A DNA stretch of 36,535 nt, taken from assembly GCA_001789205.1 (NCBI GenBank), contig MFYT01000097.1, positions 1 through 36,535 of the forward strand, given 5' to 3'. The notes under the pieces were generated by a model, which was not told the origin of the DNA, made no database searches, and was given only the letters and a program-made list of their open reading frames with translations. Each line of letters opens with the position of its first letter. Positions within the stretch are counted from its first letter, which is position 1. This DNA comes from Candidatus Raymondbacteria bacterium RIFOXYA2_FULL_49_16 (lineage in GTDB: Bacteria; Fibrobacterota; OXYB2-FULL-49-7; XYB2-FULL-49-35). Below, piece by piece: positions 8,244-32,280 of the stretch. Made by a program: the position numbers and the translations under genes.

Positions 8244-8303
8244 TACAGCTCTTTATAATTGACCTGCCAGGAGAAAAATGTGCGCCCTATATGTGGAGGA
8301 AGA

Positions 8304-9599
8304 ATGAAAATTTATAGAATAGTTTTATTCATAGGTATATTGAGCATTTCGTTTCTTTCAGCTGAAGTGCTTTTTTACAGCGCTACATCCGAACCCAACC
8401 CAACACACACCAACTCGGGTATGGCGATAATAAAGTCGAATCTCGCTACATCTGAAAAAGACACCCTTCGGGATAAGACGGTGATTGATGTCTCAGATGA
8501 TGGTTTAGCGATGTTAATCGTTGGTCAAATGTATGATTTCGCACTTGCAGATACCGGTTTTAGAATATTAAAAACATTTCCCTCACATCAATTTTTTACA
8601 GGTCAATTTTCTGCGTCTGGGGATCTTGTGTCCTTGGTTGACTTTGGTAATGAATATTTTAATAACAAGTTATATTCCCTTAGTTTGGTGAATGATACTT
8701 TGGAGCTGATCGACAGTGCAATTTATCATGAGAACATACCTGTGTTTTCATTCTCAGAGGACAAACTTGCCTATGTCAGATACTCATCTCTATATACAGA
8801 TCCTAGTGATAAAATTAACAATCCGCAAGAATTGGTTGTTTGTAATTTTACCAATGGAAGCAAGATAGTCCTCTCTGATTCCGCGCTTGATGGGGGAGAT
8901 GGCTTTTCTGTTCTCCAATGGCATCCATCAGACTCTCTGCTGTATTATCTTTCGCCGCAAGGTTTTGCAGAAATCAACGTATTTACCGGTCAAAAGTCAT
9001 TTGTCGATAGTTCAGCCCTTTTAAAACCTTTTTTTACAGATCATGGCAATACGGTTATTTATAACAACAGATACGGAACGATATTTTATAATAGGATGGC
9101 GATGATAAAGGACACTGTTTATGATCTTCTTACATTGGATATTTCTCCTGATTCAACCAAATTTATCGGGATTCTGTGGTCGTCGATAGCGGCTATAGGG
9201 GATTATAACAGAGTGGCTTTAAATTTCTATGATATTGAAGACAAGACTTTCCAGGTCTCGCAAGATTCAATTTTTATAACCGATGGATTTGTCAGGTGTT
9301 TCTGGAGAAGTTTGGTCGATGTGCAAATACAAAAACAGGCGCCTCATGGTGTTGGTTCGGTTTTAACTTCAAGCCCCAACCCCTTCAATCCTGCAACTGC
9401 AATATCCTATGCTATTCCTGGCAATGGACAGGCGGAATTAGGCATATATTCCCTGGCAGGAAAATTGGTGTATCGGACACTGGTCTCAGGCAGTGGCAGT
9501 TTTGTCTGGGACGCCTCAGACCAGGGGAGCGGGGTGTATGTGTGCAGGTTGGAGGCGGCAGGGAAAGTGATGGCGAGGAGGATGGTGTGTCTGAAATAG
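8304..9599 (+). CDS. Secreted protein with beta-propeller-like body and C-terminal sorting domain
   Basis: A 431-residue protein read from the ATG at 8304, which has a GGAGGA ribosome-binding site at 8295-8300; longer frames from 8259 lack one. The signal peptide is about 1-20 (ending near LSA-E). Residues about 40-340 contain repeated short blocks (VSDDGLAMLIV, FSASGDLVSLV, FSEDKLAYVRY, LDISPDSTKFIG) like WD40/PD40 propeller blades. The last 80 residues form a type A sorting domain with SSPNPFNPATAISY, a beta-sandwich, and a terminal GKVMARRMVCLK. Such domains direct proteins to the type IX secretion system in Bacteroidota; related tags occur across the FCB group. The body is AT-rich and the sorting domain GC-richer, so the tag may have been recombined onto it. 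Ligand unknown. Confidence 0.7.
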   Translation: MKIYRIVLFIGILSISFLSAEVLFYSATSEPNPTHTNSGMAIIKSNLATSEKDTLRDKTVIDVSDDGLAMLIVGQMYDFALADTGFRILKTFPSHQFFTGQFSASGDLVSLVDFGNEYFNNKLYSLSLVNDTLELIDSAIYHENIPVFSFSEDKLAYVRYSSLYTDPSDKINNPQELVVCNFTNGSKIVLSDSALDGGDGFSVLQWHPSDSLLYYLSPQGFAEINVFTGQKSFVDSSALLKPFFTDHGNTVIYNNRYGTIFYNRMAMIKDTVYDLLTLDISPDSTKFIGILWSSIAAIGDYNRVALNFYDIEDKTFQVSQDSIFITDGFVRCFWRSLVDVQIQKQAPHGVGSVLTSSPNPFNPATAISYAIPGNGQAELGIYSLAGKLVYRTLVSGSGSFVWDASDQGSGVYVCRLEAAGKVMARRMVCLK

Positions 9600-16095: not shown

Positions 16096-18627
16096 ATGAA
16101 ATTTACGGCGTTACTGGTTCTTGCGGCATTCATTGGATACTCAAGCGCGGCATTGTCCACGCATAGTTTTACCAACAAAGCGGGTAGAGGCAGTCACCCG
16201 AACGCTCTCACCTATGGCAGCGGCAGGGTGGTTGTCAACCTGTCCGCCATCAGCGGGGCAACCGTATATCGGGCGATCTTTGATCCAAACAGGCACTATG
16301 GCAACAGCGGGTCGTATCCGGCAAGCGGCAATGCAATGCAAAACATGATCCTTGTGTCCAAGGCCGATGACACTCTTGCCATACGCGGACCCCGCTACCG
16401 TACCTTTGACGCGACCGCGGCTGTCCAGGCTGCCCTGACAGCTGGTACGCCCTGTACGCTGACCGTGGCCAATGCCGCTGGTTTGGGCGGAGACGGCGCA
16501 ATGCTCTCTCTCGACGTCATGTGCAATGCGGCAGCGGCAGCGTCCATTGCCCAGGTCGACAGCGCAACAGCACGGTTCGACAATGGAGACGCGATAATCA
16601 CCTTTAAGGAGCTCAATCCGATTTTTACCGCCTCAACCATTACCTGCGACCAATACAACACCGAGTATAACGCCCGCTTTTCCACGGCTACAGGCGCGGA
16701 TTGGTCCGGTACTATAGAGAAAATCCGGTACCGTATCTACCGGTCTGCCCAGCCACTTGCCACTGAAGGGGCGCTTGCGGCCGCTGAGCTGGTTGACGAG
16801 ATAAAACCGCTTACTTGTTGGGACGCACCCTATTATGGTTCGGGTAACTGCACTGGTACCAATATTGTCCCGCGGTATCCCATCAACAATCTCGAGCTTG
16901 CCTCGCCCGGCATGGGCATTTATGTTGACCGATACAAAGGCATTGGCAGTGAAACCTTCTATTATTTCGTGAGTCATACTGTGGACGGAGCAGAGGACTT
17001 TTCAATCCTGACCGAAGGCGCCAATGCCACCAACAGCGTGCTCGAAAGCGGCGGACCAGGCATGGTGCTGCTCCGCGAGATCAAATCAAATGTAAGCTTC
17101 AATTATGTGAGCAACTGTACGCTTTACTATTATGTACGCTGGGAAGCGCCGCCGTACTGCAATATGCCCAGTTCGCCCTACGACTACCTGGTAGGTGTGC
17201 CGCCCAATCCCAAGCGGCCTAATCCAATGGCGCAGGTATCGCTCCACTGCTGGGGCGGCAGCATCAATTCCTGCTACGGCTGGTGGTACAGGGCCGAAGA
17301 GGGCGGCCTCATTATCTCCACAAACCAGTATCCCTATGACTGGTGGACCTCGTATCACGAGAACAGCGGAACGCTGAAGTCATTCGCTGACGGCACAGTC
17401 CAGCCTTTTACTGAGGCCAGATATCTTTCGTTCATCTATTATTTCGCTGTTCCAAATTATAACATAGATGTTGAGCGTATTCATCTTGCCGGGAGCTCCA
17501 TGGGCGGGGCAGGCACCTCCTTATGGGGCATGCGTAGCGGCCAGATTTTCTCACATCTCATCTCATGGGTTGGGGTCCATATTCCCAAAGAGTCGCCAAC
17601 ATTTACAGGCTCATTCATGGGAAATTATGGCGATACCTCGTGGAACACTACATTTTCCAATGAACAAATGGAACAGTTCGGGTATCCTGTCATACATCCG
17701 TCTGATAACGTGAATGTATGGGACTATTGGGACAATACCAAATGGCTGGCGGCAAATCCAGTTGCCGAGACTCCCTGGTTGTCTCATTCCAATGGCACAA
17801 ACGACAACGGCATTGGCTGGCCGCAGGCGTGGAAAAACGCTCAATCCCTGATGGGGGCAAAGCGGGGCTTTAATTTTTCCTGGGGCACCTCTGGCCACAG
17901 CCAGAGAGCGGTGCTTCTTGGCCAGCAGAGCGACCGGTATTGCACCATGGATTTCCGTAAAAACCAGTCGTATCCTGTGTTCACGGGCGGATCACTCGAC
18001 AAACCCCTTGGCAGCGCGCCCTGGGACCATGATTCATCGGGCAATATCAACAACTATGTGTTCTGGGACGTTGCCACGGTGGTTGACGAGGCAGACCGCT
18101 GGGAAATGACCGTGTGGCTCGATGACGGCGCTTCCCAGGCAACGGAGACCGTTGATATTACGCCTCGAAGGCTGCAGCAGCTTGCCCATGGCGCAGGCTC
18201 AACCTATGCATGGGAGTTTGTCGAAGGCCTAACCACCATTGCGAGCGGTACAGCCAATGCTGACGCCAACGGGTGCATCACGGTCCCCAATCTTACCCTT
18301 TCCAAGACCCATCGCACCCTGAAGCTTACCTGTGACAATTGTGTTGTCGCCACAAGGGACAATGCAACTGACTGGACACAACCAGTGCTTACCGCAGTAC
18401 CCAACCCATTTAATCCAGCGGTCACCATCCAGGTAAAGGGCATGGGCAAGGCGTCCCTTTCAGTGAGGGTGTATGATCTTTCTGGTAAACTGGTTGCTGA
18501 TCTGACCGAGCAGGTTTTAGGAAGCCAGGTTGTCTGGAACGCTTCTGGCCAGGCAAGCGGGATGTATGTAATCAAAGCCGTATCGGGTAAACGGACCTTG
18601 ACGCGCACGGTTGTTCTGACGCGTTGA
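16096..18627 (+). CDS. Secreted multidomain esterase with C-terminal sorting domain
   Basis: An 843-residue secreted protein; start ATG at 16096 after GGAGG. The signal peptide (1-18) ends near YSSA. Residues about 20-310 are beta-rich and cysteine-containing, partly fibronectin-III-like. An alpha/beta-hydrolase core at about 330-620 carries the elbow HLAGSSMGG (Ser468), a likely acid Asp570 (TNDNGIGW) and His601 (WGTSGHSQR), a complete triad of the prolyl-oligopeptidase/esterase type. A further beta-domain follows, then a type A sorting domain from about 764 (AVPNPFNPAVTIQV to the final TRTVVLTR). It is probably exported by a type IX-like system and cleaved or anchored at the surface. Polysaccharide-ester hydrolysis is a reasonable guess given the architecture; the substrate is not visible. 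Confidence 0.75.
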   Translation: MKFTALLVLAAFIGYSSAALSTHSFTNKAGRGSHPNALTYGSGRVVVNLSAISGATVYRAIFDPNRHYGNSGSYPASGNAMQNMILVSKADDTLAIRGPRYRTFDATAAVQAALTAGTPCTLTVANAAGLGGDGAMLSLDVMCNAAAAASIAQVDSATARFDNGDAIITFKELNPIFTASTITCDQYNTEYNARFSTATGADWSGTIEKIRYRIYRSAQPLATEGALAAAELVDEIKPLTCWDAPYYGSGNCTGTNIVPRYPINNLELASPGMGIYVDRYKGIGSETFYYFVSHTVDGAEDFSILTEGANATNSVLESGGPGMVLLREIKSNVSFNYVSNCTLYYYVRWEAPPYCNMPSSPYDYLVGVPPNPKRPNPMAQVSLHCWGGSINSCYGWWYRAEEGGLIISTNQYPYDWWTSYHENSGTLKSFADGTVQPFTEARYLSFIYYFAVPNYNIDVERIHLAGSSMGGAGTSLWGMRSGQIFSHLISWVGVHIPKESPTFTGSFMGNYGDTSWNTTFSNEQMEQFGYPVIHPSDNVNVWDYWDNTKWLAANPVAETPWLSHSNGTNDNGIGWPQAWKNAQSLMGAKRGFNFSWGTSGHSQRAVLLGQQSDRYCTMDFRKNQSYPVFTGGSLDKPLGSAPWDHDSSGNINNYVFWDVATVVDEADRWEMTVWLDDGASQATETVDITPRRLQQLAHGAGSTYAWEFVEGLTTIASGTANADANGCITVPNLTLSKTHRTLKLTCDNCVVATRDNATDWTQPVLTAVPNPFNPAVTIQVKGMGKASLSVRVYDLSGKLVADLTEQVLGSQVVWNASGQASGMYVIKAVSGKRTLTRTVVLTR

Positions 18628-18661: not shown

Positions 18662-18705
18662 ATTCGCCCTGTACCATGCAATTTATTGCATGGTACAGGG
18701 CGAAT
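18662..18705 (+). terminator. Perfect 20-bp hairpin between the esterase gene and tolQ
   Basis: Left arm 18662-18681 and right arm 18686-18705 are perfectly complementary over 20 bp with a 4-base loop TTTA. Downstream is TTCGTATCTTTC, only moderately T-rich. It most likely ends the esterase transcript. It stops 17 bases before the tolQ start, leaving almost no room for a separate tolQ promoter downstream of it. Confidence 0.65.
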
Positions 18706-18722
18706 TTCGTATCTTTCTATCC

Positions 18723-19454
18723 ATGGAAATCACTTCTAATGCGGTAATATCTCTCATAGTCAAGTCCGGCCCTTTTGCGCGGTTCATCCTGCTCCTCATC
18801 TCTTTCTTTTCCGTGCTTACGGTGGGGGTTTTTATCTACAAGTTCCGCGCGTACAAGGCGGCCCTTGAAAAAAACCGGCGCTTTTACGCTACGTTCACCA
18901 AGACCCAGAAACTCACGGACCTGCAGATAAACCCTGACCGCGGCGCCCGCGGCACGCTCGAGGAAATAGCAACAATAGGCCTTGCCGAGTATAACCGGCT
19001 GCTCGAGACCGTAATGGCGCACCAAGATTCCACTATCAGCAACTTTTTTCTTGAGACACAATTTTCCATCATCAAGGACAATTTGGAAAAGGGGGCGTCT
19101 GAAGCTGTGCAAAAGGCTGACCGTTACCTGGTCACCCTTGCCATCACCAGTTCCACCTGTCCGCTTCTGGGACTGCTGGGCACGGTCTGGGGCATCATGC
19201 ACGCCTTTTCCGACATTGGCAGCAAGGGGACCGCGAGCCTCAACGTGGTGGCGCCGGGTATTGCCGAGGCGCTCATCACCACGGTATGGGGTATTGGCGT
19301 GGCAATTCCCGCGCTGGTGGCGTACAACGCTTTTGCGAACCGCAATCGGTCCATTGAGAGCGAGGCGTACGATTTCTCGGCCCACCTTCTCAACCGCATC
19401 AAAATCGACTTTTTCGAGCTCATGTACAAGCGCGAGGCAAAGAGAGGCTCATGA
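18723..19454 (+). CDS. tolQ: Tol-Pal/ExbB-type proton channel subunit TolQ
   Basis: A 243-residue inner-membrane protein of the MotA/TolQ/ExbB family. The ATG at 18723 (MEITSNAV) is chosen because the longer frame from 18690 would start within the right arm of the strong hairpin. TM1 is at about 20-40. The conserved pair of helices lies at about 140-160 (LLGLLGTVWGIMHAF) and 180-200 (IAEALITTVWGIGVAIPALVAYN), both with the family's glycine and threonine pattern. With TolR it forms the proton-driven motor that energises TolA for outer-membrane constriction. Its ATGA overlap with tolR and the order of the following genes identify it as TolQ rather than ExbB or MotA. Confidence 0.9.
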   Translation: MEITSNAVISLIVKSGPFARFILLLISFFSVLTVGVFIYKFRAYKAALEKNRRFYATFTKTQKLTDLQINPDRGARGTLEEIATIGLAEYNRLLETVMAHQDSTISNFFLETQFSIIKDNLEKGASEAVQKADRYLVTLAITSSTCPLLGLLGTVWGIMHAFSDIGSKGTASLNVVAPGIAEALITTVWGIGVAIPALVAYNAFANRNRSIESEAYDFSAHLLNRIKIDFFELMYKREAKRGS

Positions 19455-19885
19455 GACGGTATGGCCGGCCGTTGAATGCAGACCTGAACCTCACCAATCT
19501 TGTTGACGTCACGTTCACCCTGCTTATCATTTTCATGATCACCGCGCCGTTGCTCACCCAGGGCATCAAGGTCGATCTGCCCAAGCTCACGGCGTCGAGT
19601 ATTGAGACAGACAATACCATTACCATCCATATTTTACGCAACCGCACCATCTACATAGAGCACGACGGCGCCAAGTCGCGTATCAGACTCAATGACTTCA
19701 ACCGTTCCTTTGCCGACATCTACGCTGCGTCCAGCAAGCCTGTGGTGGTGAATGCGGACAAATCCGTTCCCTACGGCATTGTTATGCAGGTCATTGGCGT
19801 GCTCAAGGAATCGGGTGTGCAAAAGCTGGGCTTTCTCACCGACCCGGTTGAGAGCAGGGACGCCATCCAGTCACTCAAATTGTAG
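19451..19885 (+). CDS. tolR: Tol-Pal/ExbD-type motor subunit TolR
   Basis: A 144-residue ExbD/TolR protein overlapping tolQ by four bases (ATGA). A short cytoplasmic N-terminus leads into one membrane helix (about 15-38). The proton-carrying aspartate lies at LTNLVDVTFTLLIIF, as in all family members. The periplasmic domain contains ADKSVPYGIVMQVIGVLKESG, the ExbD signature, and ends KLGFLTDPVE, giving the peptidoglycan-binding fold. Length is typical. It works with TolQ in a 5:2-type complex and is cotranscribed with tolQ and tolA. Confidence 0.92.
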   Translation: MRRYGRPLNADLNLTNLVDVTFTLLIIFMITAPLLTQGIKVDLPKLTASSIETDNTITIHILRNRTIYIEHDGAKSRIRLNDFNRSFADIYAASSKPVVVNADKSVPYGIVMQVIGVLKESGVQKLGFLTDPVESRDAIQSLKL

Positions 19886-19894
19886 CAGGCCGCA

Positions 19895-20593
19895 ATGAGC
19901 ATGCCCGCAGCACTACTCGAATCGGTAAAACGCGATCCCTTCAAAAAAGCGGTCACCGTATCCCTGGTTCTGCATCTTTTTGTTATTATATCATTCACGC
20001 TGCACGATATGATGAAACCGCGTCAGGTGGTGAAAAAGGCCTATCTGTTCGATATGGTGAATACGCGGCCGCAGCCACGCAGGTTCGCGGCGCCTCCTGT
20101 TGCCAAACCGCGCGAGGTAAAAAAACAGGAGCCGGCTAAAAAGACCGTTGAGAAACCAAAGGAAAAAGCCATTTCCACGAAAAAGGCGAAAAAAGAGGAG
20201 AAGCAAAAAGAAGAGCCCAAAGAGCAGCTCCAGGACGAACCCAAAGAAACGGTCCAGGAAAAGGACGCGCCCCAGACACTGCAGAACGAGATGACCATTT
20301 CCCAGCCCGATTTCCCTTTTAAGTATTATTATCAGCAGATCATAAACGCGGTAGAGCGTAATTGGAATCCGCCCCAGGAGCTGTTGGGCAGCGAAATGCA
20401 GCTGGCGGTTGAAGTGAAGTTCCGGCTTTTAAAAAACGGACAAGTCACGGATCTTGAAATATCCGAATCATCGTGGAACACCATTCTCGACAAACTTGCC
20501 CTTCGGGCCATTGAAAAGGCGCGTATTCCGCCCATTCCTGGTGATGAATCTGAACTGACGATTACTTACCGGCTTGTGCTCTCAAGGAATTAA
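19895..20593 (+). CDS. tolA: TolA/TonB-type periplasm-spanning protein
   Basis: A 232-residue protein with a single membrane anchor at about 19-37 (VTVSLVLHLFVIISFTL). A long Lys/Glu/Pro-rich linker (about 65-135) is expected to form an extended periplasmic rod. A TonB-family C-terminal domain (about 145-232) follows, with YYQQIINAVERNWNPP, AVEVKFRLLKNGQVTDLEI and ALRAIEKARIPPIP. It transmits TolQR energy to the outer membrane. The linker is much shorter than in enterobacterial TolA, and the C-terminal domain reads as TonB_C, which is usual outside proteobacteria. The start may be 19895 or 19901; neither has a strong ribosome-binding site. It lies 9 bases after tolR and 3 before tolB. Confidence 0.85.
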   Translation: MSMPAALLESVKRDPFKKAVTVSLVLHLFVIISFTLHDMMKPRQVVKKAYLFDMVNTRPQPRRFAAPPVAKPREVKKQEPAKKTVEKPKEKAISTKKAKKEEKQKEEPKEQLQDEPKETVQEKDAPQTLQNEMTISQPDFPFKYYYQQIINAVERNWNPPQELLGSEMQLAVEVKFRLLKNGQVTDLEISESSWNTILDKLALRAIEKARIPPIPGDESELTITYRLVLSRN

Positions 20594-20596
20594 TAC

Positions 20597-21841
20597 ATGC
20601 TGCTGTTATTACTTATCGCTATATCGGTTATTCAGGTCTCTTCACCGGCAGAAGAGCTCTTTCTCGAGAGCACGTCAAGCGGCATCCCAAAGATGGATAT
20701 AGCCGTGGTCGATTTTGTCAGGAAAAACCTGGGTCCTGGCAGCACAGGCGCAGCCAAACCGCACGAGGTCATTGTCAATGACCTGAAGCTTTCCGGCAGG
20801 TTCAATGTCTTTCCCATGAACACCCTCGACACGGTGACCATGCACAAGAAAAACATCGCGGTTTTTATTGAAGGGACAATTGATCAGAGCAAGGGGAACA
20901 CTATTTTCGAGTGTTTCCTGCACGACGCCTATTCCCTCAATCTCATCACAGGTAAACGGTTTAACGTGAAGGACAATGCGGTGCGCAAAGCCGCGCACCT
21001 CTTTTCCGATGAAGTGGTGTACCAACTCTTTGGCGAAAAGGGCATTGCAACTACAAAAATCGTGTGTACTATGCGGGGCCCAAAGGGAAAGGACGTCTGC
21101 GTTCTCGACTATGACGGTTATAACCCGGTCTATATCACGCGGAACAATTATATCAACCTGACGCCCGCGTGGTCTCCGGACAACCAGGCCGTGTATTACA
21201 CGTCATACCGTGATAAAACCCCGGCATTGTACAAGACGTTCATTTATACGGGCCAGACCGTGCGCCTTACGCCCAATGCCATGCTCAATTTTTCGCCCAC
21301 GTCAAATCCCATTGACAGCCGTATTGCCTTTGCATCAACGGTGCATGGAAACAGTGAAATCTATATCATGGAGGGCGATGGCACGGACATAGCGCGGCTC
21401 ACCTTCCAGGGGTCTATCGAGTCGTCTCCTTGTTTCTCGCCCAATGGCTATGAAATCACCTTTACCTCAGACCGTACCGGTTCTCCGCAAATCTATATCA
21501 TGGATTCTGAAGGGACCAATGTGCGGCGCCTTACCTTCGAAGGCAAGTACAATGCTTCGCCTTCCTGGTCGCCCAAAGGCGATAAAATTGCCTATCAATC
21601 AATGGTCGAGGGCGTGTTCAATATCTGTACCATTGATATCGAAGGCGGCGCTGTGCAGCAGCTTACAACCAAGAGCGGGAACAATGAGCACCCGTCTTTT
21701 TCAGCCGACGGCCGGCTCATCATGTTCTCGTCCACACGGGCGGGCGCCAGTGATTTGTATATTATGAATGCGGACGGTTCGAACCAGACGCGGATCACCA
21801 CCGGCGGAGGATATGAGTTTCCCGAATGGTCGGGGCGGTGA
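20597..21841 (+). CDS. tolB: Tol-Pal system beta-propeller protein TolB
   Basis: A 414-residue periplasmic protein. The signal peptide is short (LLLLIAISVIQVSSPA). An N-terminal TolB_N domain (about 25-150) reads KMDIAVVDF...IVNDLKLSGRFNVF, which is the family pattern. A six-bladed propeller follows, built from PD40 repeats such as PAWSPDNQAVYYTSYRD, PCFSPNGYEITFTSDRTG, PSWSPKGDKIAYQS and PSFSADGRLIMFSSTR, each paired with an IYIMD strand. It moves between TolA and Pal. Here Pal would be its expected partner but is not encoded next to it. The gene starts 3 bases after tolA, so the operon is tightly coupled. Confidence 0.93.
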   Translation: MLLLLLIAISVIQVSSPAEELFLESTSSGIPKMDIAVVDFVRKNLGPGSTGAAKPHEVIVNDLKLSGRFNVFPMNTLDTVTMHKKNIAVFIEGTIDQSKGNTIFECFLHDAYSLNLITGKRFNVKDNAVRKAAHLFSDEVVYQLFGEKGIATTKIVCTMRGPKGKDVCVLDYDGYNPVYITRNNYINLTPAWSPDNQAVYYTSYRDKTPALYKTFIYTGQTVRLTPNAMLNFSPTSNPIDSRIAFASTVHGNSEIYIMEGDGTDIARLTFQGSIESSPCFSPNGYEITFTSDRTGSPQIYIMDSEGTNVRRLTFEGKYNASPSWSPKGDKIAYQSMVEGVFNICTIDIEGGAVQQLTTKSGNNEHPSFSADGRLIMFSSTRAGASDLYIMNADGSNQTRITTGGGYEFPEWSGR

Positions 21842-21858
21842 TTTGCAGGAGTGAAGTC

Positions 21859-22629
21859 ATGAAAGAAAACGTAAAAAAAATTGTCCTTGCAGCTGTCGCG
21901 GGCGCGTGCCTGCTGACCGGCTGCGCAGGCCAGGTCGCGGTGGTCAATCGCGCGGAGTGGGAACAGCAGAAACAGGAGATTGCGGCGCTCAAGGCCGGGA
22001 TTGGCGGGCTCCAGACATCGGTTGAAAAGCTGCACGACGAGGAGATGAAACAACTCAAGCTCATCAATGCCGACTTGCGGGTGCTCTTTTCCGACCTGAG
22101 CCGCAATCTGAACGTGGTGAGTGGCAAACTCGAGGAAAATCAGTACAATCTCGAGAAGCTGAGCAAGACCACCACGCAGCTCACGGAACGGAAGTTTGTG
22201 GTGCGCAGCGTTGCTGGCCGCGATTCGCTGCTTCAAGACACTGTGGTTGCCGAGGACAAGGTCGATGTGCAGAAGCTTTTCAAGATAGCCCGCGAGGACT
22301 TCAATGCCAAGGATTATGAGCGAGCGCGCAAGGAGTTTGAGGAACTCAACGCGAAATTTCCCGACGACAACCTCGCGGACGACTGCCGGTATTGGGCGGC
22401 TGAGTGCTACTATGTGCAGAAAAAATACAAGGAGGCGCTTGAACAGTACAGAGAGGTTGTTGAAAAGTATCCGACAGGCGACATGGGGCCAGCGGCCATG
22501 TTCAAAATGGGACTTTGCTACAAGGGGTTGAGCGACAAGAAAAACATGGAAAAGACCTGGACCGACCTGATTTCGAAATACCCCAACAGCGACGAGGCCA
22601 TGCAGGCAAAGGCGCGGACAGGCAATTAG
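21859..22629 (+). CDS. cpoB: Tol-Pal system protein CpoB/YbgF, lipoprotein form
   Basis: A 256-residue protein. The ATG at 21859 follows an AGGAG site; a longer frame from 21826 overlaps the end of tolB and lacks one. The lipobox LLTGC places Cys22 as the acylated residue, so unlike E. coli CpoB this version is a membrane-anchored lipoprotein. Residues about 30-115 form a heptad-rich coiled coil (trimerisation region). After a linker come three TPR-like repeats (about 130-256: FKIAREDFNAKDYERARKEF, DNLADDCRYWAAECYYVQKK, GDMGPAAMFKMGLCYKGLSD), the signature of YbgF. It links the Tol machine with cell-wall synthesis at division in E. coli. It is the last gene of the operon. Confidence 0.88.
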   Translation: MKENVKKIVLAAVAGACLLTGCAGQVAVVNRAEWEQQKQEIAALKAGIGGLQTSVEKLHDEEMKQLKLINADLRVLFSDLSRNLNVVSGKLEENQYNLEKLSKTTTQLTERKFVVRSVAGRDSLLQDTVVAEDKVDVQKLFKIAREDFNAKDYERARKEFEELNAKFPDDNLADDCRYWAAECYYVQKKYKEALEQYREVVEKYPTGDMGPAAMFKMGLCYKGLSDKKNMEKTWTDLISKYPNSDEAMQAKARTGN

Positions 22630-28924: not shown

Positions 28925-28954
28925 TTGACAACAATAATTTATTAATATTATAAT
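28925..28954 (+). promoter_or_regulatory. Near-consensus sigma70 promoter
   Basis: TTGACA (28925-28930) and TATAAT (28949-28954) are both perfect, with an 18-base AT-rich spacer. Transcription would start near 28961, giving a leader of about 53 bases before the AAGGAGA ribosome-binding site and the ATG at 29014. It serves the three-gene envelope operon. Confidence 0.8.
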
Positions 28955-29013
28955 ATCTTTTACTCAATGAATTTGGCTGTAAAAACGATTCAATTAAAAC
29001 CAAGGAGAGACAC

Positions 29014-29844
29014 ATGAAGAGCAGGTTCATTCAAACCAGCGCGGCTATTACGGCCGTTGTCTGTCTGATATGCGGCACTGCCTTTGCCCAGATTGGCGGC
29101 TCGGTCGATTGGGTCAACAGGGTCGTAAAGGCAAAGGGTATTGGCGCGGTCAACCCCAATATGCCCGAAAGCGCGGCCCGGCCTGGTGCCATACGCGCTG
29201 CCAAGCAGGTCGCTTTGCGCGACGCATTGGAGCTTATCAAGGGGCTTCAGCTCAATTCCACGACCACCATTGCCAATGGCATGACCGAAAATGACGCTAT
29301 TAACACCAGTATAAGCGGGTTTGTCAAGGGATTCCAGTTTGAACCCAATCCTCATTATATGAGCGACGGCACGGTTGAGATCGAGGTGACCATTCCTATT
29401 GACGGTGTTTCTGGCCTTGGATCGGCCCTTTTTGGCGGTTCAGTCGAACTGGTCCCCGAGAAGCCTTCCACCACCTTTGCGCCTTCCGGAGCTCCGGCCA
29501 AGGGGTTCACGGGCCTTATTATCGACGCCAAGGGTCTGGCTATCAAACCCGCACTCATGCCGCGCATTACCGATGAGAAGGACAAAGAGATCTATGGCAG
29601 CGCTTATGTATCGCGTGACTTTGCCGTGAAGTTCGGCATGTGCGGATACGCGAAGGACATTGCTGACGCGCAGAAGCGGACCGATCGCATTGGCGCTTCG
29701 CCTTTTGTGGTCAAGGCGCTCAAGGCCGCTGGCCCCAACAAAACTGATATTGTGGTGTCCAACGACAATGCGGCCACCATTATGAGCACGGCGCAGAACA
29801 TGAAGTTTCTGTCCGAATGCCGCGTCATAGTTCTTATTGATTAA
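29014..29844 (+). CDS. Exported LPP20-family protein (FlgP-like)
   Basis: A 276-residue exported protein. The ATG at 29014 follows AAGGAGA. The signal peptide ends CGTAFA-Q. Residues about 30-130 carry the LPP20 pattern VVKAKGIGAVNPNMPE, AIRAAKQVALRDALELIKGL, then TIANGM and SGFVKGF. LPP20 proteins include the FlgP outer-membrane lipoproteins of Vibrio, although this one has a Sec peptide and no lipobox. A second domain (about 165-276) contains GLIIDAKGLAIKPALMPRI, a strand arrangement seen in LPP20-linked proteins, and ends in MKFLSECRVIVLID. It is first in a three-gene operon whose next start follows 17 bases after its stop. Confidence 0.75.
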   Translation: MKSRFIQTSAAITAVVCLICGTAFAQIGGSVDWVNRVVKAKGIGAVNPNMPESAARPGAIRAAKQVALRDALELIKGLQLNSTTTIANGMTENDAINTSISGFVKGFQFEPNPHYMSDGTVEIEVTIPIDGVSGLGSALFGGSVELVPEKPSTTFAPSGAPAKGFTGLIIDAKGLAIKPALMPRITDEKDKEIYGSAYVSRDFAVKFGMCGYAKDIADAQKRTDRIGASPFVVKALKAAGPNKTDIVVSNDNAATIMSTAQNMKFLSECRVIVLID

Positions 29845-29861
29845 TGAAAGGAACCCAGAAT

Positions 29862-31058
29862 ATGAAACCGAAGAATATAACCGCGGTGTGCACGGCTGGC
29901 ATGCTTGCGCTTTTCCTGTTTGGCGGCTGTGCAAAAACGCGTAAAGCCGGCGGGCAGATGGACACGCCTGAAGTGCATTATGAGCAAGGCATGAAGTATT
30001 ACAACCAGGGCGAGATTACCCGGGCTGGAGATGAGTTCGACCTTGCCCGCACCCTTGATTTCAAGTACGCTCCCGCTTATGCGGGCCTGGCCCTGGTCGC
30101 AGGGGAAAAGGCGCGCGTTGAGAAAAATCCCAAGCTCGCGGAAAAGGGCTTTGACAAGGCGTACGAATATATCGAGAAGGCGAAAGACCTGGACAAAAAG
30201 CTTGTGGCCGCATGGCTGGCATATGGCATGGTGATTACCATGCAGCATATGGCTGACGAGGACAAGGAATGGGTCGAGAACGCGCTTGAGCAGTACGACA
30301 AGGTGATAGCGAAACTCGATCCCGCCTGCAGCGAGGCCTACTACCGCAAGGGTTGGACCCTCAAATACGCCTTCAAATTCAGGGATGCGGCCGATCAGTT
30401 CAAGAAAGTGCTGGACCTCGACAAGACCTATACCAAGGAAGCTGACGAACAATGGAATATCATGCAGAACATTGAACGCGCGGCCCCGGGCAGCAAGATC
30501 GGCATGAAAATCGCGCTTATTGAAAAGATATCGCGCGCCGATGTGGCGGCTTTATTCATGAGCGAGCTTGATGCGGCTAACCTTATACAGAAGAAGCGTC
30601 CGAAGAACTATGACACTGATTTCAAGGCGCCGGACGATCCACGTACGCTTGAGGCCCAGAAGACCGTGACCATGGCCGAGGCGACTGATATTGCCACGCA
30701 CTGGGCGCGCAATTTCATCAACGATGTGGTTAATCTGCAAGTACGGGGCCTCGAACCCTATCCGGACCATACCTGGAAGCCCGATCTTTTGATTACTCGC
30801 GGCGAATACGCATTCATGCTCGAGGACATTCTCATCGCCATTCTGCGCGACGAGTCGCTGGCCACCAAGCACATTGGTGCGTCCGAATCGCGTTTTCCCG
30901 ATGTCAATCCATCGGCTCCTTTTTACAATGCCATATGCAATATGGTCGACAAGAATGTCATGGACGCGAACATTGATGGCGAGTTCAAGGCTTTGGACCC
31001 GGTTTCGGGCGCCGATGCGCTTCTGGTCATCAGAAAGCTCAAGGAACTGAAAAAATAA
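29862..31058 (+). CDS. TPR lipoprotein with C-terminal SLH-like domain
   Basis: A 398-residue lipoprotein. The start at 29862 is preferred because AAAGGAA lies 9 bases upstream; a start at 29844 would contain that site. The lipobox LFGGC is acylated at Cys. Three to four TPR units fill residues about 35-205 (HYEQGMKYYNQGEITRAGDE, APAYAGLALVAGEK, SEAYYRKGWTLKYAFKFRDA). The C-terminal region (about 300-398) reads like one to two SLH repeats: LITRGEYAFMLEDIL, SRFPDVNPSAPFYNAICNMV, then a turn and ALDPVSGADALLVI. SLH domains usually bind cell-wall polymers. A lipid-anchored TPR protein with an SLH end could bridge membrane and wall. Confidence 0.7.
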   Translation: MKPKNITAVCTAGMLALFLFGGCAKTRKAGGQMDTPEVHYEQGMKYYNQGEITRAGDEFDLARTLDFKYAPAYAGLALVAGEKARVEKNPKLAEKGFDKAYEYIEKAKDLDKKLVAAWLAYGMVITMQHMADEDKEWVENALEQYDKVIAKLDPACSEAYYRKGWTLKYAFKFRDAADQFKKVLDLDKTYTKEADEQWNIMQNIERAAPGSKIGMKIALIEKISRADVAALFMSELDAANLIQKKRPKNYDTDFKAPDDPRTLEAQKTVTMAEATDIATHWARNFINDVVNLQVRGLEPYPDHTWKPDLLITRGEYAFMLEDILIAILRDESLATKHIGASESRFPDVNPSAPFYNAICNMVDKNVMDANIDGEFKALDPVSGADALLVIRKLKELKK

Positions 31059-31070
31059 GGAGGTACTGCT

Positions 31071-32216
31071 TTGAAAATCATGACACTTTTTGCCTGCTCG
31101 GTCCTCCTTTTCGCCGCTGGCGCAACCTGCCAGCAGGCAGCTGACGATGTCAAAATCGTTGAAGGCTATGGTCTTTCGAGCACGCAGCCCGATGCACTGA
31201 CCCAGGCCAAGCGCGACGCCATTGAAAAAGGTATTGGTGTTATGCTTCTGTCGCAGACTGAGACAAAGAATTTCATGCTCGAAAAGGACGTGATTATCAC
31301 CAAGACCATGGGTTCGGTCAAGAAATACGACGTTTTATCCCAGGGAAAAACACCAGACGGCCTCTTTGAGATCAAGATCAAGGCCCAGGTGTCGCTTGCC
31401 AGCATAAAGGCCGACCTTGCGGCGCTCAAAATCCTGCTCGAGACCATGGACAAACCGCGTGTCATGGTGCTTATCCAAGAGAGCCGCAACGGCGAGACCA
31501 AAGCCGGATACAATTCAGCGGCCACCGCCATCCTCGATTTTCTTACGGAAAAAGAGTTCAACATAGTCGATCCCGCGCAAGTCGCGGCGCTTATGGGCAG
31601 CAACGACGAATATATCGCCCAGGCCGCAGCGGGCGATCCTGTTGCCGCGGCAAAACTGGGCCGTGATAATGGGGCTGAAGTGATTCTAGTGGGCAGGGCC
31701 ACGGGTTCGCTTGCGCCAGACAATCCCATGCTCGGGAATATGAAATCAGGCCAGGCAGACCTCAATATCACGGTCATCAACTGCCAGACCGGCAAGGTGA
31801 TTACCGCGAAGAACGCGCACCAGGCAAAACCGCACATTTCAGCGGAAACCGCCATGTCCAACGCGCTGCTTGCGGCTGGAAAAAAGATCCTTGACCGCGA
31901 TCTTTTCGACAAGATTGTAGGCCACTGGCAGGACCAGGCCAACAACGGCCAGGAACTGCGCGTGCTCGTCAAGGGCGTTGATTCTTTTGCCAAGCTCAAG
32001 GAAGTCAAGATGTATGTCCAGACCATGTCGCCCAACGTGGTCACCGTGACCCAGCGCAGCTGGACCAAGGAAAAAGGCCAGCTAGAGCTTGCGGTGGTAT
32101 TCAAAGGCAACGCAGAAGCGTTCTGTGAATATATTGACGGAAAAGCGACAAAGGGCGGGGTCAAGATGGCCGTGGTCGATTATTCGTCAGGCGCTGTGAA
32201 GCTATCGGCGGAGTAA
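31071..32216 (+). CDS. Exported FlgT/CsgG-like envelope protein
   Basis: A 381-residue exported protein with a TTG start at 31071 (GGAGG lies 8 to 9 bases before). The signal peptide is about 1-22; there is no good lipobox. Residues about 28-115 (VEGYGLSSTQPDALTQAKRD, then a long strand region ending LFEIKIKAQVSL) match the FlgT N-terminal/LPP20-like fold. Residues about 125-230 (RVMVLIQESRNG, ATAILDFLTEKEFNIVDPAQ, AKLGRDNGAEVILVGRATGS) resemble the middle domain of FlgT and the CsgG/LpoB class. The last third is unassigned. It is the last gene before the strong terminator at 32245-32280. Vibrio FlgT builds a flagellar outer ring, but no flagellar gene is here. Confidence 0.7.
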   Translation: MKIMTLFACSVLLFAAGATCQQAADDVKIVEGYGLSSTQPDALTQAKRDAIEKGIGVMLLSQTETKNFMLEKDVIITKTMGSVKKYDVLSQGKTPDGLFEIKIKAQVSLASIKADLAALKILLETMDKPRVMVLIQESRNGETKAGYNSAATAILDFLTEKEFNIVDPAQVAALMGSNDEYIAQAAAGDPVAAAKLGRDNGAEVILVGRATGSLAPDNPMLGNMKSGQADLNITVINCQTGKVITAKNAHQAKPHISAETAMSNALLAAGKKILDRDLFDKIVGHWQDQANNGQELRVLVKGVDSFAKLKEVKMYVQTMSPNVVTVTQRSWTKEKGQLELAVVFKGNAEAFCEYIDGKATKGGVKMAVVDYSSGAVKLSAE

Positions 32217-32237
32217 GAAAAATAAATCACGGGTAAA

Positions 32238-32280
32238 AAAACGGTCCCTGCTGCGGTAAAAAGCAGCAGGGATTTTTTTT
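32238..32280. terminator. Strong bidirectional rho-independent terminator
   Basis: The 10-bp perfect stem TCCCTGCTGC (32245-32254) / GCAGCAGGGA (32263-32272) has an 8-base loop and is followed by eight T (32273-32280) on the plus strand. On the minus strand it is followed by CCGTTTTTTT (from 32244 to 32235). It can end both the envelope operon and the ribosomal-protein/uppP/HIT operon. Confidence 0.9.

Follow-up and report, generated by a model that had tools for sequence, protein, structure and literature searches.

An operon for FlgP-like, TPR-SLH and FlgT-like exported proteins in Fibrobacterota, possibly encoding an envelope scaffold independent of flagella

Each domain of the three proteins described here is already known from other systems. 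FlgP, of the LPP20/SHS2-like family, is found in the basal disk of Campylobacter and in the H-ring of Vibrio, of which FlgT is also a component, and LpoB, CsgG and PelC have a common fold. In FlgP, an insert between the helix and the second strand correlates with ring formation and forms the ring-making hairpin (PMC12222027). Domain D2 of the Treponema pallidum protein Tp0624 was without structural analogue, and the D1-D2 unit without D3 has been seen in nearly 50 proteins to which no role was assigned (PMC5104382). OmpM, which with SlpA represents the SLH tethers of Terrabacteria, is absent from Gracilicutes, the group containing Fibrobacterota (PMC10628300). Flagella are ancestral in Fibrobacterota and were lost in the Fibrobacteraceae (PMC4704652). 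In a partial search of the literature we found neither a unit made up of FlgP-like and FlgT-like proteins and an SLH lipoprotein, nor FlgP- or FlgT-like proteins retained after loss of the flagellum.

The operon lies on contig C97 of a 5.4-Mb Fibrobacterota genome (G000), in a stretch of 36,535 nucleotides that was analysed as a whole and is called the window below. Positions 28925-32274 form a single transcription unit, with a promoter, three ORFs head to tail and a terminator, and the features of the unit and its products are as follows:

28925..28954, + strand: sigma-70-type promoter, TTGACA-N18-TATAAT, 12/12 consensus match
29014..29844, + strand: ORF of P1, 276 aa
29844..31058, + strand: ORF of P2, 404 aa
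31071..32216, + strand: ORF of P3, 381 aa
32243..32274, + strand: intrinsic terminator-like hairpin and T run, 12 pairs, closing the unit (sequence)
P1, residues ~28-130: LPP20/FlgP-type domain (profile and fold matches)
P1, residues ~165-276: Tp0624-D2-like domain (profile and fold matches)
P2: lipobox with Cys29, TPR repeats, and SLH repeats at ~281-327 and ~350-392 (Pfam and alignment)
P3: signal peptide, N-domain homologous to that of P1, CsgG/PelC/LpoB-like middle domain and C-terminal domain, with an overall FlgT-like fold

The three ORFs are those of the initial annotation, at the same coordinates and all on the + strand. P1 and P2 have one base in common at their junction, and P3 begins with a TTG start codon preceded by AAGGAGG. 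A strong promoter of its own had also been attributed to the operon; in the window, shuffling the preceding 250 bases 100 times gave one sequence that also scored 12/12, but relatives are without it 5' of P1, and it is specific to G000. No sigma-70, sigma-28 or sigma-54 promoter was conserved 5' of the P1 orthologues. Codon bias was considered as a sign of high expression and set aside, P1-P3 being within the more biased half, yet unremarkable.

P1 carries a Sec signal peptide, with cleavage between AFA and Q, and no lipobox cysteine. In a search with a P1 profile built from 15 sequences, positions 43-110 of the profile aligned with FlgP from 9hmf, the structure of the Campylobacter motor scaffold (E=5.2e-6), and there was a weak match to the FlgP of 8z5n, the LPHT ring of Vibrio (E=0.09). 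The AlphaFold model of P1, poor to modest in quality (pLDDT 61.6), matched the FlgP of 9hmf in a fold search with a probability of 0.97. Pfam LPP20 was recognised in nine of 15 P1 orthologues (best E 3.3e-5), under the Pfam cut-off in every P1 member with a listed score (19.9 and 19.8 bits in two distant relatives, for a cut-off of 25.9), and was not recognised by Pfam in the P1 of the window on its own. The ring-associated FlgP insert appears to be present in P1, as judged from the profile alignment with 9hmf, which is continuous across the insert except for a gap of one residue; the insert region is not resolved in the model. The C-terminal half of P1 matched Treponema Tp0624 (5jir) in the profile search (E=1e-13), and the P1 model matched the same structure in the fold search with E=4e-10 over 271 columns, covering D1-D2. 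Because of these profile and fold matches we identify P1 with the Tp0624 D1-D2 unit, and Tp0624 D1 thereby groups with FlgP/LPP20, a connection that is drawn here via P1. The description of P1 as an exported FlgP-like protein was thus borne out, on profile and fold evidence independent of P3, but the Tp0624-type second domain had been overlooked. Besides having this second domain, P1 differs from FlgP in three ways: it is not a lipoprotein, its gene does not lie in a flagellar locus and was seen without flagellar neighbours, and it occurs in G019 (see below), where flagellar markers were not found. From Tp0624 it differs in that it ends after D2, without the OmpA-like D3, and its neighbour P2 would contribute the wall-binding part.

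For P2, all parts of the proposed lipid-anchored TPR-SLH protein were found. Pfam SLH scored 39 bits in two stretches (cut-off 20.8) and TPR_2 scored 30.7 bits (cut-off 27). The lipobox cysteine, Cys29, is invariant and is followed by an alanine. Under the E. coli Lol rule, alanine after the lipobox cysteine leads to outer-membrane sorting, and if the rule extends to this phylum such sorting would be expected of P2. Trp287 and Arg319 (the TRxE arginine), both in the first SLH repeat, are invariant in 14 orthologues, and the equivalent tryptophan and TRAE arginine bind the wall ligand in other SLH proteins (PMC10628300). Like the OmpM/SlpA tethers, P2 is predicted to be linked to the outer membrane and would reach the wall by SLH repeats with the ligand residues, but it is a TPR lipoprotein and has no C-terminal beta-barrel.

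P3 gave a good AF2 model (pLDDT 86.8), and its first two fold matches among 350,542 PDB chains were FlgT 3w1e (E=1e-9) and the FlgT of the Vibrio LPHT ring (8z5n_0; E=2.7e-9), with alignments of ~398 columns that span the whole protein and suggest that the three-domain fold of FlgT is shared. The TM-scores of these alignments are low (0.30-0.36), so the domains match better than their packing, and P3 differs from FlgT in its sequence (12-13% identity), in its unlike domain packing (rmsd 15), in scoring under the Pfam FlgT cut-offs and in lying outside a flagellar locus. Against the PDB, the P3 sequence profile had no usable match and FlgT was found by the fold search only; Pfam FlgT_N/M/C were below cut-off, with just FlgT_N appearing, in one of 15 orthologues (E=0.046). 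The proposal of a FlgT-like P3 therefore holds by fold and not by Pfam family score, in a test independent of P1. Fold ranks 3-47 were mostly CsgG and PelC, also GNA1162, and covered the middle domain. In the Pfam search LpoB (PF13036) was recognised in five of 15 P3 orthologues and CsgG in two of 15, both weakly (best E 1e-4 and 1.1e-4), and the P3 of the window had neither. The sole clear NCBIfam match was to the model of Leptospira LipL46 (E=1.5e-8), at 33.7 bits against a cut-off of 400 bits, and P3, in which no lipobox was found, is not a lipoprotein as LipL46 is. The N-domains of P1 and P3 are homologous, including the insert (hhalign 97.6%, 33% identity, 82 columns), and the region equivalent to the insert is modelled in P3 as helices, not a hairpin. 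None of the comparisons with FlgP, FlgT, Tp0624 and OmpM holds for every tested feature, and we therefore consider that the three proteins work like these systems and are not members of them.

Among 168 Fibrobacterota genomes, P1 occurs in 21, P2 in 19 and P3 in 25, with fragments counted and short TPR-only or domain-only matches left out. The full trio is present in 16 of the 168 (G000, G001, G007, G019, G023, G027, G029, G033, G039, G045, G047, G057, G059, G066, G069 and G167), so that the three genes co-occur across the phylum, G019 being without flagellar markers. Neither of the outcomes that the initial annotation named as refuting its proposal, restriction to flagellated strains with a flagellar locus or a lack of co-occurrence, was therefore observed. 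P1 and P2 adjoin in nearly all trio genomes, across many families, and the order P1-P2-P3 recurs in the distant G167 (family f14) and, as far as contig ends permit, in G001, whose two contig ends do not overlap. P1-P3 pairs without P2 in between occur in G027, G047, G075 and G154; P3 is not linked to P1-P2 in most genomes, and is present without P1 and P2 in G021 and G049. In most relatives P3 lies outside this operon. Fisher tests of co-occurrence, uncorrected and ignoring phylogeny, gave p values of ~1e-17 and ~1e-20. On a FlgI tree of 28 genomes, P1, P2 and P3 need 8, 7 and 5 changes, respectively, and co-occurrence corrected for phylogeny on this tree was not significant, with 3-4 independent pairs, mostly in the same direction, in an underpowered test. 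A contig scan with P2 returned one informative match, an order-level relative, the other being a TPR match in a Bacteroidales MAG.

Most other holders have a MraY-type gene and a SAM methyltransferase gene upstream of P1-P2, and in many holders ispG is downstream of P3, often after a gap of just 13-16 bases. The MraY-type gene of G019 is the sole PF00953 match of that genome. In loci L062-L070, L115-L117 and L123 the MraY-type gene, the SAM methyltransferase gene and P1-P2 stand in one operon. Locus L178 (G065:C341) reads MraY-methyltransferase-P2, with P1 cleanly absent between and no P1 elsewhere in G065, and in L114 (9305-10443; G154:C43) an apparent frameshift, either decay or an assembly error, breaks P3 into two ORFs (161 and 219 aa) next to an intact P1.

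Our tentative interpretation, to which we give slightly less than an even chance, is that the operon encodes a periplasmic scaffold, independent of flagella, that connects outer membrane and cell wall. The lipid of P2 would sit in the inner leaflet of the outer membrane and its SLH end would hold the wall, either peptidoglycan or a wall polymer, with the TPR part as a docking surface. P1 would multimerise via its FlgP-type domain, whose inserted segment builds rings in FlgP, and P3, FlgT-like and with a related N-domain, may take part with P1 in one ring or curved lattice; P1, P2 and P3 would thus be in contact. The counterparts of P1 and P3, FlgP and FlgT, sit in one Vibrio ring (LPHT, 8z5n), and the wall and lipid-carrier genes (mraY, ispG) next to P1-P2 and P3 elsewhere also count for a scaffold. 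Counted against it are the flagella of 15 of the 16 holders, the somewhat faster evolution of P1 in G019, the lack of significance once co-occurrence is corrected for phylogeny, the mostly unlinked P3, the Pfam FlgT scores under cut-off, the poor P1 model and the helical insert region of P3. What makes a non-flagellar scaffold probable to the degree stated is that one relative keeps all three genes after the loss of flagella. The more specific picture, in which FlgP- and FlgT-like ring proteins, known until now from flagellar motors, form a ring or lattice beneath the outer membrane independently of a flagellum and the SLH lipoprotein bolts it to the wall, we hold with considerable doubt.

No flagellar genes were seen within the window, and the description of the operon as one without flagellar genes is right for its neighbourhood. 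It does not extend to the organism, because G000 is flagellated, with flgI on C100, fliG on C18, flhA on C23 and eight flagellin matches. Flagellar markers are present in 15 of the 16 full-trio genomes. In the remaining one, G019 (96% complete, ~60 contigs), FlgI, flagellin, FliG and FlhA were all not found; all four are present in its congener G007. P1, P2 and P3 of G019 are intact and 84-88% identical to those of G007 at a dS of 0.9-1.2, with dN/dS values between the two of 0.07-0.10, near the ratios of flagellated pairs and mostly slightly above them. Relative rates in G019 are even for P2 and P3, and P1 has evolved somewhat faster, with 15-16 versus 4-6 changes for two outgroups. A recent loss of flagella in G019 would make the argument from retention weaker. 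Flagellated relatives without P1, P2 and P3 include G003, G009, G011 and G037, among others, of which G011 and G037 are nearly complete. P1-P3 do not track flagella.

The main alternative is that the three are parts of an accessory ring in the flagellar motor of Fibrobacterota, equivalent to the H-ring or basal disk, encoded at a distance from the flagellar clusters and confined to some clades, with P2 as wall anchor and the genes of G019 as a relic. The profile and fold matches of P1 and P3 are to FlgP and FlgT, which both occur in the Vibrio LPHT ring, and motor accessories differ among clades; because 15 of the 16 holders are flagellated, we regard such a ring as unlikely rather than implausible. 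It fits poorly with the intact genes of G019, which remain under purifying selection in a genome without FlgI, FliG, FlhA and flagellin, with the many flagellated relatives that do without P1-P3, with the operons that P1 and P3 share with mraY and ispG in relatives, and with the lack of an outstanding sigma-28- or sigma-54-like promoter. Extra LPP20-like matches in G057 and G053 had no recognisable flagellar genes around them, so that no dedicated flagellar FlgP was found by this route.

The same neighbours, mraY before P1-P2 and ispG after P3, would also suit helpers of wall synthesis, with P3 acting in the manner of LpoB on a peptidoglycan synthase and P1 and P2 positioning it between outer membrane and wall, and LpoB is the commonest Pfam match of the P3 orthologues. 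However, LpoB, CsgG and PelC have a common fold and FlgT ranks higher in the P3 structure search, P3 has no lipobox, and housekeeping wall genes are the same in genomes with and without the trio, all of which makes this role improbable. An export gate or collar for polysaccharide or protein, like CsgG or PelC, is suggested by the dominance of these two in fold ranks 3-47 of P3, but the matches are limited to the middle domain, the Pfam CsgG hits are few and weak, and no gene for a substrate, a synthase or curli lies close by, and we think such a gate highly improbable. That the three are independent envelope proteins sharing an operon by chance, as P3 lying elsewhere in most genomes and alone in two might suggest, can be given hardly any weight in view of the adjoining P1-P2 in many families, the recurrence of P1-P2-P3 in G167, the P1-P3 pairs of four genomes and the N-terminal domain common to P1 and P3.

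If the scaffold interpretation is true, the operon would represent an SLH-based outer-membrane tether in Gracilicutes and a candidate for the envelope scaffold that supplied the outer rings of flagella. A set of FlgP-like and FlgT-like proteins that survives without flagella offers a place to test whether the outer rings predate flagella or are separable from them. The orphan Tp0624 D1-D2 unit gains a family link, to FlgP, and a genetic partner, the SLH lipoprotein, and a phylum with a little-studied envelope gains a possible outer-membrane tether.

Other genes were noted in the same genome. By Pfam, positions 18690-22629 of the window hold a Tol operon with TolQ, TolR, a TonB/TolA-like protein, TolB and a CpoB-like TPR protein, and at this locus no pal lies between tolB and the CpoB-like gene. 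On contig C47 of G000, at ~47740-53240 (L129, 2740-8243), translations examined by eye include CsgG-like and GNA1162/PelC-like exported proteins and a PEGA-like repeat protein, possibly another envelope or export complex; a match to P3 on C47, considered as a paralogue, was rejected as belonging to this separate CsgG-like cluster. Large exported proteins encoded at 8259-9599 and 16096-18627 of the window have similar tails of the form NPFNP...YDLSGKLV...SGVYV/SGMYV, which look like a C-terminal sorting signal.
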